This document shows, in pieces, positions 593 to 4,859 of a stretch of DNA of 64,000 bases; the stretch's first letter is position 1; every line of letters starts with the position of its first letter. Below the pieces are notes generated by a model. It saw nothing but the letters and a program-made list of their open reading frames with translations, was not told the origin of the DNA and made no database searches. A program made the translations under genes and the position numbers. The DNA lies in the NCBI RefSeq assembly GCF_016025255.1, contig NZ_CP065592.1, positions 2,250,122-2,314,121 of the forward strand, in the 5' to 3' direction. The stretch comes from Sphingosinicella flava. Its GTDB lineage: Bacteria; Pseudomonadota; Alphaproteobacteria; Sphingomonadales; Sphingomonadaceae.

Positions 593-2386
593 TCAATCCG
601 CCCAGGCCGCATCGTCCAGGTGGATTTCGGCGGCGGGGCGGTCGTTCCAATCGTCGCGCTTGATCCGTCCGGCGATCCACAGCTTGCGGTCTCCCGGAGC
701 GGCGAGCAGGGTCTGGCCGAGCATGCTGTCCGCCAGCCGGAAGCCGATCGCCTTGATGCGTCGCCCGTCGTCGCCCGACACGATCAGGCGCAGATGCCCT
801 TGCCCGACAATGTCGGCCTTGACGACCCGCACCGGTCCGGCGGCGACGCGCGGGCCCGGCCACCCCGCGCCATAGGGGCCGCCCGCTTCAAGGGCGTCGC
901 AAAGCGCGGGATGGACGCCGCCCGGCGCCAAGACCGCGTCGAGAAGGAGGGCGCGGTCGTCGCGCGCGCGCGCGACATCGGCCGCCAGCCGGTCGTCGAG
1001 AAAGTCGGCGAGCGCGTCGAGGCAGTCGCGCGCGACGGTGAGGCCGGCCGCCATGGCATGCCCGCCGCCCGCCACCAGAAGGCCGCTGTCCTTGGCCGCG
1101 AGAATCGCCGCGCCGAGATCGACCCCGGCGATCGACCGGCCGGAGCCCTTGCCGATTCCCGCTTCGTCGAATGCCACGACGATGGCGGGCCGGCCCAATT
1201 TCTCCTTGAGGCGTCCGGCGACGATGCCGATGACTCCGGGATGCCAGCCCGCGCCGTGGACCAGGGCGACGGCGCGATTATCCTGCCCCGCGGCTGCGGC
1301 CTCCGCCGCTTCGCAGACCAGCATCTCGATCGCGCGCCGTTCCTGATTGTAGCGTTCCAGTTCCTCGGCCAGCGCCGCCGCTTCGGCTGGATCCTCGGTG
1401 GTGAGGAGGCGGACGCCGAGATCGGACTTGCCGACCCGCCCGCCCGCATTGATGCGCGGGCCGAGCGCGAAGCCGAGATCGGTGCAGGTCGGCGCGCGGT
1501 CGAGCCGCGACACCTCGATCAGGGCGGCGAGGCCGATGTTGCGGCGCTGCGCCATCACCTTCAGGCCCTGCGTCACGAAGGCGCGGTTGAGTCCCTTCAA
1601 CTGCGCGACGTCGGCGACGGTGCCGAGCGCGACGATGTCGAGCAAGTCGACGAGGCGCGGTTCCGGCCGTTCCGTGAAGAATCCGCGCCGCCGCAACGTC
1701 CGGATCAGGGCCGCGCCGAGCAGGAAGGCGACCCCGACGGCGGCGAGGTGACCGTGCGCGGCGGCGTCGGCTTCCTCATCCAAACGGTTGGGATTGACGA
1801 GCGCGAAGGCATTGGGAAGCGCGCTCGCGCATTTATGGTGGTCGACGACGATCACCTCGATCCCCGCATCCCGCGCCATGTCCAGCGCCTCGAACGCCTG
1901 CGCGCCGCAATCGACGGTGACGATCAGTTTCGCGCCGCCTTCGCCGATTCGCACCAGCGCTTCGCCCGACGGGCCATAGCCTTCCATCAGCCGGTCGGGG
2001 ATATAAGGCGTAGCTTCAAGGCCGAGGTCGCGGAGCAGGCGGATCAGCAATGCGGCGGAGGTCGCGCCGTCCACGTCGTAATCGCCGAAAATGGTAACGG
2101 GCTCGCGCGCCTGAACCGCATCGGCGATCCGATCCGCCGCCTTATCCATGTCCCGGAAAATCGACGGATCGGGCATGAAGCCGCGGATGGTCGGCGTCCG
2201 GTGCCGCTCCAGATCCTCGCGCGAAACCCCCCGCGCTAGCAGGAGCTGGGCCACCAGATCGTCCGGCACGAAACCTTGATCGAGCGGGTCGCACCCCGCG
2301 CCGCGCCACCGCCAAGGCTGCCCGGATATCGAGCGCGCGACGCCGCATACATGCATGAAATCGGATGGAGCGGGGCGGAGGTTCAC
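593..2386 (-). CDS. recJ: Single-stranded-DNA-specific exonuclease RecJ
   Basis: This 597-residue protein is a DHH-superfamily 5'-3' single-strand DNA exonuclease acting in recombinational repair. The metal-binding motif GDYDVDG is at residues 101-107 and the DHH motif (VVDHHK) at about 181-185. A DHHA1-type region with GGGHAMAAG follows near residue 425, and a C-terminal OB-like segment completes the usual RecJ length. The chosen start is a GTG at 2386 preceded by AGGAAGAG. An ATG ten codons later is an alternative. The gene is divergent from the Y-family polymerase, so two repair genes share a 125-bp intergenic region. Confidence 0.95.
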   Translation of the reverse strand: MNLRPAPSDFMHVCGVARSISGQPWRWRGAGCDPLDQGFVPDDLVAQLLLARGVSREDLERHRTPTIRGFMPDPSIFRDMDKAADRIADAVQAREPVTIFGDYDVDGATSAALLIRLLRDLGLEATPYIPDRLMEGYGPSGEALVRIGEGGAKLIVTVDCGAQAFEALDMARDAGIEVIVVDHHKCASALPNAFALVNPNRLDEEADAAAHGHLAAVGVAFLLGAALIRTLRRRGFFTERPEPRLVDLLDIVALGTVADVAQLKGLNRAFVTQGLKVMAQRRNIGLAALIEVSRLDRAPTCTDLGFALGPRINAGGRVGKSDLGVRLLTTEDPAEAAALAEELERYNQERRAIEMLVCEAAEAAAAGQDNRAVALVHGAGWHPGVIGIVAGRLKEKLGRPAIVVAFDEAGIGKGSGRSIAGVDLGAAILAAKDSGLLVAGGGHAMAAGLTVARDCLDALADFLDDRLAADVARARDDRALLLDAVLAPGGVHPALCDALEAGGPYGAGWPGPRVAAGPVRVVKADIVGQGHLRLIVSGDDGRRIKAIGFRLADSMLGQTLLAAPGDRKLWIAGRIKRDDWNDRPAAEIHLDDAAWAD

Positions 2387-2483
2387 GCTCTCTTCCTAAG
2401 CCATTGCAGGCCGGAACGGAATCCTTCCCAGCGAAAAGCTGTGGAAAAATCGCGGCCCCGAATTGCGGGAATGCCTAAAATCT

Positions 2484-2498
2484 GTTCTCTTTATGTTC
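2484..2498 (+). promoter_or_regulatory. LexA (SOS) box of alphaproteobacterial type
   Basis: GTTC at 2484-2487 and GTTC at 2495-2498 are separated by exactly seven bases (TCTTTAT). This is a perfect match to the GTTC-N7-GTTC operator bound by LexA in alphaproteobacteria. It ends one base before the first in-frame ATG of the Y-family polymerase, so binding would block that promoter directly. recJ starts about 100 bp away on the other side and could also be affected. Confidence 0.8.
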
Positions 2499-2511
2499 TA
2501 TGCGACTCGAT

Positions 2512-3780
2512 ATGGATCATCCGCTGCGATTCCTGTTTATCGACTTCAACGGCTATTTCGCCGCGGTCGAGCAGCATGACGATCCCGCGCTCTTCGGCAA
2601 GCCGGTGATGGTGATCCCGCTTCCCTCCGAACATACCGGCGCGATCGCGGCGAGCTATGAAGCCAAGGCGCTCGGCATCAAGCGCGGCACGACCGTCCGG
2701 GAAGCGCGCGCAATGTGCCCCGGCATCGCGATCCGGCCTGCCCGGCACGAGCGCTATGTCGAAGTGCATGGTGAATTGATGGAGGAGATCGGGCGGCATC
2801 TGCCGGTGACGCGCGTCTATTCGATCGACGAATGCGCCTGCCGCCTCAGCCGGGACGAGCAGAATGCGGAGGCCGCCGTCGCCAAGGCGCTGGAGGTGAA
2901 GGCGGGGATCAGCCGCAATGTCGGCCCGGCGCTCCGCTCCTCCATCGGCATCGCCGCCAGCCCCCTGCTCGCCAAGCTGGCATCCGAACTGGAGAAGCCG
3001 GACGGGTTGCAGGTCGTCCATACGCAGAGCTTGCCGGATGCCCTCGCCAAGCTGCCGCTCCGCGCCATTCCCGGCATCGGCGAAGGGGTCGAGCGCCGCC
3101 TGGCCAAGGCGAAGGTCACGGATTTCGAAAAGCTATGGCATCTCCCGCCCAAGCAGGCGCGGGCGATCTGGGGATCGGTGGTGGGGGAGCGTTTTCTTTA
3201 CGCCCTGCGCGGCCACGACATTCCGGACGAGGCGCCCAAGGCCAAGAGCATGATCGGCCACAGCCGCGTCCTCTCGCCCGAGCATCAGCGCCCGCCCGAG
3301 GCGCGCATCGTCGCCCGTGCCCTGACCCTGAAGGCCGCGAGCCGCCTTCGCCTTTACAAGCTGCATGCCTGCCGCATGAGCCTCGGCATCGCGCTCCGAC
3401 CGCGCGGCTGGCTGGAGTTTGAGAGCCACTTTCCGGCGTCTCAGAACAGCTGGACCTTCCTGCGCGAACTCGACGTCATGTGGGTGCAGGCAGTCCAGGC
3501 GCTGCAACGCTCAGGCCTGTGGAAGGGGCGGATGGGCACCGTCTATGTGAATTTCAGCGATTTTCGCACCCAGGGCCGCGATCCCGACCTTTTCGCCCCG
3601 CCCGGCGCGGAAGCGCGGGAGGAGAAGGAGGCCTTCCTTTGGGCCGCCATCGACAAATTGAACCGCGCTTACAAGAAGCAGACGGTGACGCTCGCCTCGC
3701 AGCGCGGGCTGGACCTCAATTATCTCGGCGTGAAGATCGCGTTCAGCCGCGTGCCGGAGGCGGCGGAGTTTCTGTGCTGA
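2512..3780 (+). CDS. Y-family DNA polymerase (DinB/ImuB-like)
   Basis: The protein is a translesion DNA polymerase of the UmuC/DinB superfamily, about 422 residues. The first catalytic segment reads FIDFNGYFAAVEQ and the second reads YSIDEC, so the palm acidic residues (Asp, then Asp-Glu) are present, although the DxD of classical DinB is DxN here. A helix-hairpin-helix-like LRAIPGIGEGVERRL and a little-finger domain follow. It is not accompanied by imuA or dnaE2 in this window. An ATG at 2500 is also in frame, but the LexA box ends at 2498 and there is no ribosome-binding site, so I prefer the ATG at 2512, possibly on a leaderless mRNA. SOS induction is expected. The exact subfamily is uncertain. 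Confidence 0.85.
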   Translation: MDHPLRFLFIDFNGYFAAVEQHDDPALFGKPVMVIPLPSEHTGAIAASYEAKALGIKRGTTVREARAMCPGIAIRPARHERYVEVHGELMEEIGRHLPVTRVYSIDECACRLSRDEQNAEAAVAKALEVKAGISRNVGPALRSSIGIAASPLLAKLASELEKPDGLQVVHTQSLPDALAKLPLRAIPGIGEGVERRLAKAKVTDFEKLWHLPPKQARAIWGSVVGERFLYALRGHDIPDEAPKAKSMIGHSRVLSPEHQRPPEARIVARALTLKAASRLRLYKLHACRMSLGIALRPRGWLEFESHFPASQNSWTFLRELDVMWVQAVQALQRSGLWKGRMGTVYVNFSDFRTQGRDPDLFAPPGAEAREEKEAFLWAAIDKLNRAYKKQTVTLASQRGLDLNYLGVKIAFSRVPEAAEFLC

Positions 3781-3793
3781 GCCGTCCTTTACG

Positions 3794-3860
3794 TGCTCCT
3801 GCGAAAGCAGGAGTCCCGTTTCACGATCGGCGCCGCTGGGCTCCTGCTTTCGCAGGAGCA
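3794..3860. repeat. Palindromic intergenic repeat (3-kb copy)
   Basis: A 20-bp arm at 3794-3813 (beginning TGCTCCTGCGAAAG) recurs as its exact reverse complement at 3841-3860. Each arm is itself a small palindrome. The element fills the gap between the converging polymerase and glpX genes and may serve as a bidirectional terminator. Related CTCC/GGAG palindromes occur elsewhere in the window. Confidence 0.75.
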
Positions 3861-3878: not shown

Positions 3879-4859
3879 CTACTCGCAATGATGGCCTGGT
3901 TCGTGGCGGTGCTCGCCTTTTACCCAGCGCACGGTGCCGGTGCTGGCGCGCATCACGACGCTTTGGGTGGTGATGCAGCCCTTGCGGCGCTTGACGCCCT
4001 CCAGCAGCGAGCCGTCCGTCACGCCGGTCGCGGCGAAGATCACGTCGCCCTTGGCGAGGTCTTCCAGATGATAGATGCGGTCGAGATCCTGAACGCCCCA
4101 GCGCGCGGCGCGGGCGCGTTCATCCTCGTTGCGGAAGACGAGGCGGCCCTGGAACTGGCCACCGACGCAGCGCAGCGCCGCGGCCGCCAGCACGCCCTCG
4201 GGCGCGCCGCCCTGGCCCATGTAGATGTCGATCGTCGTATCGGGATCGGTGACCGCGATCACGCCCGCGACGTCGCCATCCGGGATGAGCATGATGCCGC
4301 AGCCCAGCGCCCGGAGCTCGGCGATCAGCTTTTCATGACGCGGGCGATCGAGGACGCAGGCGATGATGTCGGAGGGCTGGACGCCTTTGGCGGCGGCGAG
4401 CGCGCGGATATTGTCGGCCGGCGATTTGGCGAGATCGATGGTACCGTCGGGATAGTCCGGGCCGATGGCGATCTTGTCCATGTAGACATCCGGTGCGTTC
4501 AAAAGCCCGCCTTCCTCGGCAATGGCGAGGACGGCGAGGGCATTGGGACCGGCCTTGGCGGTGATGGTCGTGCCTTCGAGCGGATCCAGCGCGATGTCGA
4601 TGCGCGGACCGCTGCCCTGCGCCGCGCCGACCTTTTCGCCGATATAGAGCATCGGCGCTTCGTCGCGTTCGCCTTCGCCGATGACGACGGTGCCGTCGAA
4701 TTCCAGCTGGTTGAGCGCCTCGCGCATCGCTTCCACGGCGGCATGGTCGGCGGCCTTTTCATTGCCGCGCCCGATGAGCTTCGAGGCGGCAACCGCCGCC
4801 GCCTCCGTCACGCGCACCATTTCCAGAACCAGCACGCGATCGAGCGCATTTCCAGCCAT
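3879..4859 (-). CDS. glpX: Class II fructose-1,6-bisphosphatase
   Basis: GlpX hydrolyses fructose 1,6-bisphosphate to fructose 6-phosphate and phosphate, the committed step of gluconeogenesis, in the cytoplasm. The 326-residue length is normal. Diagnostic segments are GEGERDEAPMLYIGE near residue 63 and DPLEGTT near residue 93, which form the Li+-sensitive phosphatase fold's metal site. The start ATG at 4859 is followed by the conserved N-terminal helix. In this window it joins PEP synthase as a second gluconeogenic enzyme, although the two genes are far apart. Confidence 0.95.
   Translation of the reverse strand: MAGNALDRVLVLEMVRVTEAAAVAASKLIGRGNEKAADHAAVEAMREALNQLEFDGTVVIGEGERDEAPMLYIGEKVGAAQGSGPRIDIALDPLEGTTITAKAGPNALAVLAIAEEGGLLNAPDVYMDKIAIGPDYPDGTIDLAKSPADNIRALAAAKGVQPSDIIACVLDRPRHEKLIAELRALGCGIMLIPDGDVAGVIAVTDPDTTIDIYMGQGGAPEGVLAAAALRCVGGQFQGRLVFRNEDERARAARWGVQDLDRIYHLEDLAKGDVIFAATGVTDGSLLEGVKRRKGCITTQSVVMRASTGTVRWVKGEHRHEPGHHCE

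Follow-up and report, generated by a model that had tools for sequence, protein, structure and literature searches.

GTTC-N7-GTTC is the SOS box motif of alphaproteobacteria. The locus described here carries this motif in exact form, and within the same Sphingosinicella flava genome (G000) it is also present at lexA, uvrA, an imuA-like gene and further repair genes. In this locus and some of its relatives, however, the box is in contact with the start codon or overlaps it, and appears to include the -10 element. Leaderless mRNAs have been described in alphaproteobacteria, 375 in C. crescentus and, as cited in the same text, 171 in S. meliloti (PMC4117421). The likeness to our case is that many such mRNAs are translated in this class of bacteria; the difference is that the genes considered here form a class tied to LexA operators, and the words 'LexA' and 'SOS' are absent from the main text of that paper (PMC4117421). 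In Mycobacterium tuberculosis the lexA mRNA is leaderless, with the translation start at the transcript start (PMC2897130). This too is an SOS gene with coinciding starts, but it belongs to another phylum, and the available text of that paper describes no operator abutting the start codon (PMC2897130). Among Y-family DNA polymerases, the groups of Timinskas and Venclovas (2019) are active enzymes, as the polymerase reported here probably is, and share with it a UmuC-like motif of the C-terminal tail that belongs to DUF4113; a part of DUF4113 in Y-family tails is presented there as homologous to the RecA oligomerisation motif, and Alphaproteobacteria and Sphingomon- are absent from the main text (PMC6511836). 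Literature was searched for LexA boxes in the group, for LexA together with leaderless mRNAs or start codons, and for the polymerase, and no title or abstract opening among the matches listed described the layout reported below. As far as these matches show, the fused operator-promoter-start layout would be a new form of something already known.

The window, meaning the whole stretch of DNA analysed (64 kb), comes from a genome of 2.42 Mb in a single contig. The polymerase gene and its neighbours were located as follows.

2500..3780, plus strand: Y-family DNA polymerase gene, 426 aa (ORF; Pfam IMS E 2.9e-31)
2542..2550, plus strand: motif I codons D15-F16-N17, D15 catalytic (alignment)
2821..2832, plus strand: motif S108-I-D110-E111 codons, D110 and E111 catalytic (alignment with DinB and UmuC)
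3637..3705, plus strand: C-terminal stretch resembling DUF4113, the UmuC tail motif (E 0.014; 15.8 bits against a cut-off of 24)
593..2386, minus strand: recJ, divergent neighbour (ORF and family matches)
3879..4859, minus strand: glpX, convergent neighbour (ORF and family matches)

The best sequence relatives of the polymerase in the PDB were Dbh, Dpo4 and other Pol IV chains. Its AlphaFold model (mean pLDDT 90.2) matched the Dpo4, Dbh and DinB structures over about 350-365 columns, indicating a Y-family fold over the whole polymerase region. The sequence-only reading that preceded this analysis had correctly noticed DFN in the active site, at residues 15-17, and had hinted that such a site was unusual. 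This hint did not hold, as D15, D110 and E111 were invariant in 51 of 51 relatives, together with F20, and residue 17 was more commonly N (31 of 51) than D (20 of 51). E. coli UmuC, with DVN as its motif I, also has N at the place of N17. A damaged active site was thus rejected, N being common at this residue. Across 79 clade rows motif I read DLN in 45, DFD in 24, DFN in 8 and DMN in 2. F20 was aligned with F of DinB and Y of UmuC, in the column which we take to be the steric gate place. By sequence and predicted fold, the catalytic centre is intact and the protein has the features of an active Y-family polymerase. A DUF4113 match was detected in 33 of the 51 relatives (E up to 1), the best at 8e-6.

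DinB, UmuC and ImuB belong to the same IMS family, and the catalytic D and DE are common to the polymerase, DinB and UmuC. The polymerase nevertheless falls below the NCBIfam cut-offs for both Pol IV and UmuC. It was not assigned to DinB (Pol IV), as it scored 135.6 bits against the cut-off of 389 of the best model and the DinB rows stood apart with support 100. UmuC (Pol V) or a UmuDC-like system was rejected on a score of 54.6 bits against a cut-off of 431 and on the neighbours, which are recJ and glpX rather than umuD. ImuB was rejected because the catalytic residues are intact in the polymerase, whereas ImuB of G000 lacks D, D and E at the catalytic columns, and because an imuA-imuB-dnaE2 cassette lies elsewhere in the genome. 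A defence system was discarded, with no PADLOC match found. A quick tree was built from 85 rows, leaving out two partial loci shorter than 300 aa; the motif used did not detect a dinB in L114. Support 100 separated the 79 clade rows from the four DinB rows; UmuC and ImuB formed long unplaced branches. In a tree without ImuB the clade stood apart from DinB plus UmuC with support 93, below the 95 mark, UmuC being one long branch. The separation from DinB is firm, those from UmuC and ImuB less so.

The polymerase gene was found (E up to 1e-40) in 2 of 26 genus genomes, G000 and the congener G212, and in 18 of 289 genomes of a class sample that included G000. In both congeners it lies between recJ and glpX. 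The recJ gene was found in 25 of the 26 genus genomes; in 14 of the 23 others, including the one with the most similar recJ (G172), glpX stands beside recJ in the fetched flank without the polymerase, and in the remaining 9 the fetched stretch beside recJ showed no glpX. In the genus genomes it is a patchy gene at a fixed recJ-glpX site. An ImuA-like gene, an imuB-placed IMS gene and the next ORF, which was read as dnaE2 from its first residues alone, lie about 0.59 Mb from the polymerase in G000, so that the polymerase was correctly described beforehand as standing outside an imuAB-dnaE2 cassette. Relatives at E up to 1e-40 were present on 31 plasmid records. Among the 30 listed, 18 were labelled 'type VI secretion protein ImpB', 9 'UMUC-like DNA-repair protein' and 3 otherwise; by genus name, 29 are presumably alphaproteobacteria and one Aeromonas. 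Databases already contain annotations for this polymerase group. The window also contains two perfect copies of CTCCTGCGAAAGCAGGAG in opposite orientation, located between the polymerase and glpX (3796-3858) and perhaps a terminator or REP-like, and a tRNA-Glu (TTC) is located at 407-481 on the minus strand.

At the start of the polymerase gene the window reads ...TTGCGGGAATGCCTAAAATCT-GTTCTCTTTATGTTC-T-ATGCGACTCGATATGGATCAT..., with the following features.

2484..2498, plus strand: LexA box GTTC-N7-GTTC, GTTCTCTTTATGTTC, a putative operator; exact match, conserved in clade loci
2500..2502, plus strand: first start codon candidate, ATG, 1 nt (T, 2499) past the box
2512..2514, plus strand: second start codon candidate, ATG, in frame, with 13 nt between box and ATG

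The exact box lying one nucleotide before an in-frame ATG of an intact ORF, and the next in-frame ATG 14 bp after the box, were both confirmed from the earlier description. Either ATG may serve as the start.

GTTCTCTTTATGTTC is the only exact GTTC-N7-GTTC in the window on both strands. If the box were a chance match and the polymerase not SOS-regulated, a single occurrence would cause no surprise: 1.63 exact matches per window are expected by chance, at least one was present in 81 of 100 shuffles, and genome-wide the motif showed no enrichment over the reversed control in G000 (22+30 vs 25+27, i.e. 52 vs 52). The significance of the box therefore comes from its conservation in orthologues, since the pattern frequency alone does not show it. 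An order-level set of 61 clade loci, the window included, was taken from the matches listed in 196 genomes of the order; partial clade matches (G093, G107, G072, G033 and the second G187 match) and Pol IV-level matches were left out. An exact box was found at 57 of these 61 listed loci, within 300 nt upstream to 60 nt inside the matched stretch, while 100 rounds of dinucleotide shuffling gave a mean of 0.59 of 61 and a maximum of 3. With 18 class-level loci from 17 further genomes (289 searched) and the congener G212, a set of 80 loci was obtained, of which 74 carried an exact box and 6 did not (the order-level part again among matches listed). Against about 1% in the shuffles (0.59 of 61), this makes a chance box highly improbable.

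A scan of a species collection with the alignment as query, a single-protein query having given no match, kept the best 80 of 543 relatives. Twelve of these were duplicates of earlier loci, and an exact box was present in 56 of the 68 further loci; 54 were usable, as L229 has the box inside the coding sequence and L175 no start after it. An exact GTTC-N7-GTTC thus lies near the gene start and is conserved in orthologues, as in a LexA-regulated gene. The earlier suggestion of a separate SOS translesion enzyme is supported, at the level of sequence, by the conserved box, the polymerase's own branch and its distance from imuAB-dnaE2; LexA binding, damage induction, the transcript start and bypass activity of the polymerase are inferred.

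Distances between box and start were compared in the 74 clade loci with a box, taking as start whichever in-frame ATG came first when reading from 8 nt before the end of the box. By this rule the gap was at least 16 nt in 49 loci, at most 5 nt in 18 and 6-15 nt in 7, so a box abutting the start, as called here, is not obligatory in the clade. Many long-gap loci showed a TATAAT-like -10 about 13 nt past the box, their -35 being TTGTTT or TTGATT within it. The short-gap loci tended to have TATTAT-, TAAT- or TTAT-like letters in the box spacer. Among 25 short-gap loci, the best consensus promoter predicted a 0-nt leader in 10 (G074, G192, G146, G143, G184, G195, G136, G128, G281 and, as a tie, G007) compared to 0 of 49 long-gap loci; it did not in the other 15 short-gap loci, the window and G212 included. 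A hexamer resembling a -10 and placed for a leader of -1 to +2, the leaderless place, was present in 10 of 22 short-gap vs 2 of 49 long-gap loci, while other offsets gave 0-6 of 22 in the short-gap class; this count left out L105, L166 and L100, in which the family-typical start lies further on. Mean Shine-Dalgarno (SD) energies were +0.3 and +1.3 kcal/mol for gaps of at most 5 and 6-15 nt and -3.4 and -3.8 for longer gaps, where the short-gap values lend weak support because the scanned stretch is mostly the box itself. On the quick tree, the short-gap state needed 8 changes (gap at most 5) or 9 (gap below 16) among 70 scored loci; with the start choices uncertain, these need not be independent origins. 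What recurs is a layout, as read from these sequences, of a putative -35, a LexA box whose spacer contains a putative -10, and a start codon 1-2 nt past the box.

Boxes on other genes of G000 were measured to the first plausible start. The distances were 10 nt for uvrA, 15 for the imuA-like gene, 13 for an HhH-GPD glycosylase gene, 20 for rmuC, 24 for a PA0069-type radical-SAM gene and 2 for a TIGR03916 radical-SAM repair gene. The TIGR03916 gene was found in 21 of 26 genus genomes, and GAAC-N7-GAAC lay exactly 2 nt before its start in 21 of 21 (ATG in 20, GTG in one), with TTGACA-like letters at -35..-30. The mean majority fractions were 0.38 at -60..-37, 0.82 at -36..-31, 0.44 at -30..-18 and 0.86 in the box. 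This pattern of upstream conservation fits a promoter with its -10 inside the LexA box and a transcript starting at the start codon. In 149 family genomes, GAAC-N7-GAAC-NN-ATG gave 332 matches in 131 genomes vs 29 for the backward pattern, a ratio that is approximate because the control differs in letters and not all matches are gene starts. A separate, unsummed box-pattern scan matched 138 of the 149 family genomes, in which many listed spacers were G+C-rich and chance-like and the reversed control matched as well. The recurrent layout and the promoter placement of the TIGR03916 gene make leaderless or nearly leaderless SOS mRNAs likely.

Several further boxes were recorded in passing. In 10 of 25 genus dinB loci (L253-L277) an exact reversed box contains GTG, the likely start; of the other 15, 13 keep GTGAAC with a degenerate first half-site and two have neither. 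A 1076-aa ORF (L171:326-3569, from G000:C1:1639825 onward) starts 1 nt past the exact box GTTCTACCCTTGTTC, a polymerase-like geometry, and was matched by nothing in Pfam, NCBIfam or PADLOC within the limits applied. The exact box GTTCCTGATATGTTC lies 56 nt before the ATG of an S24-peptidase regulator, LexA- or phage-repressor-like (L022:809-1444, minus strand), and GTTCTTATTTTGTTC, an exact box with an all-A/T spacer, lies near a P63C-domain gene, possibly a mobile element (L011:327-1442, minus strand). No exact box was found in the 300 nt upstream of recA, where the degenerate GAACAAATAGGATAC is located (L122:1375-1389).

The window grouped with G212 and three loci of the sister genus g12 with support 100. 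In G212 an ATG lies exactly 1 nt past the box, the same gap as in the window, and an upstream in-frame ATG overlaps the box. In g12 the gap is 2 nt and is followed by an N-terminal extension. Pairwise differences in the 69 nt after the gap were 0-1, 2 and 7-9 at codon positions 1, 2 and 3, compared to 27-48 differences in the 60 nt upstream of the box; a start at gap 2 is supported since the differences in the extension are mostly at third codon positions. The g12 promoters TTGCCA-18-TATTAT and TTGTCA-16-TATTAT have a predicted leader of 0 nt. Gap 2 also occurs in L176 and L181-L185. In 20 subclade loci, scanned from -23 to -13 from the box, the best -35-like hexamer matched 4.45 of 6 letters on average vs 3.28 in letter shuffles (0 of 2000); its position relative to the box was -19 in 8 of the 20 loci, and in all 20 it fell within -20 to -13. 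L173, with 70% identity the closest among the best 80 of 543 relatives, keeps the box, has its only in-frame ATG inside it, and has its +1 ATG out of frame. The rule also placed the start of L180 at an in-frame ATG inside the box, with later ATGs present, and the subclade loci L174, L179, L186 and L188 have gaps of 25-38 nt. In g12 a dinB gene lies upstream of the polymerase, with its first ATG 1 nt past an exact box (L113:2348-2366; G074:C2:737409-737427).

In the window itself, the promoter scan found no consensus sigma-70 promoter at 2380-2560, the best -35 matching 3/6 and both its own -35 and -10 being poor. The candidate elements were:

2463..2468, plus strand: candidate -35 TTGCGG, weak (3/6 matches), near the place of the subclade -35-like hexamers
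2488..2494, plus strand: candidate -10 in the LexA spacer, TCTTTA or CTTTAT, by homology with relatives
2476..2481, plus strand: rival candidate -10 TAAAAT, by sequence reading
2499..2504, plus strand: rival candidate -10 TATGCG, which would make ATG 2512 near-leaderless

By homology, a -10 at 2488-2494 would set the transcript start at 2500-2501. TAAAAT at 2476-2481, which matches TATAAT at 5/6 positions and lies 2 nt before the box, could instead give the same regulation with an ordinary short leader, the transcript starting near 2488 inside the box and having a leader of about 12 nt if ATG 2500 is used and 24 nt if ATG 2512 is, in either case without an SD site. The lexA gene of G000 offers a parallel, as it carries its own box, where TTGACA-17-TACACG was read off the sequence, and its ATG lies 19 nt past the box. 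However, TAAAAT has no -35 at the right distance, the short-gap relatives tend to have their -10-like letters inside the box, and the SD energy scan found no SD-like pairing before ATG 2500, which was counted against such a leader. We consider it possible but rather doubtful.

Translation from ATG 2512 would go with TATGCG as -10 and an almost leaderless mRNA from near 2511. The HhH-GPD glycosylase gene of G000, with its 13-nt distance, has TATACG at the equivalent place, and three relatives with a 12-nt gap (G007, G136 and G128) have a -10 at box+15 and a predicted leader of 0. G212 has no ATG at that place but one at gap 1, however, and the subclade -35-like hexamers lie mostly too far upstream for TATGCG, and this start is in our opinion unlikely. 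The sequence-only reading had held that the mRNA is very short-leadered or leaderless. The comparative geometry favours this, and some of the relatives, like the radical-SAM gene, show the leaderless promoter placement; for the window gene the placement is weak, and the missing consensus promoter, the two possible starts and the out-of-frame +1 ATG of L173 speak against it.

The reading we prefer, and hold to be probable on the comparative sequence evidence, is a stand-alone LexA-repressed Y-family translesion polymerase whose operator is merged with the core promoter and start codon. The 15-bp box would span the -10 region and end 1 nt before the AUG, so that bound LexA would occupy the -10 and the first codon and block RNA polymerase at the promoter. 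Upon damage, LexA cleavage driven by RecA would open the promoter to transcription, with the 5' end of the mRNA falling on the AUG or no more than about 12 nt from it. Translation would proceed without an SD site, probably on a leaderless mRNA, and the polymerase would bypass lesions in parallel with DinB and ImuB-DnaE2. On a wider scale, we give an even chance to the proposal that operator, promoter and start are fused into one SOS module in sphingomonads and other alphaproteobacteria. Such a module would measure about 36 bp: a -35 would come first, the spacer of the LexA box would hold the -10, and the start codon would either follow the box by 0-2 nt or lie inside it. Bound LexA would cover promoter and first codon together, and SOS genes (the polymerase, the radical-SAM repair gene and, in some species, dinB) would be expressed from leaderless mRNAs.

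SOS genes are searched for by the LexA boxes upstream of them, and SD sites often guide the choice of start codon; genes whose operator, -10 and start codon fall together are easily mis-annotated. The polymerase would add a third enzyme, whose relatives are often labelled 'type VI secretion protein ImpB', to the picture of sphingomonad SOS mutagenesis beside DinB and ImuB-DnaE2. The layout offers a clear test of whether part of the stress response leans on leaderless translation in alphaproteobacteria. If the fused module is true, it would link damage induction with leaderless translation (70S, SD-independent) and prevent the separate evolution of operator, promoter and start codon.
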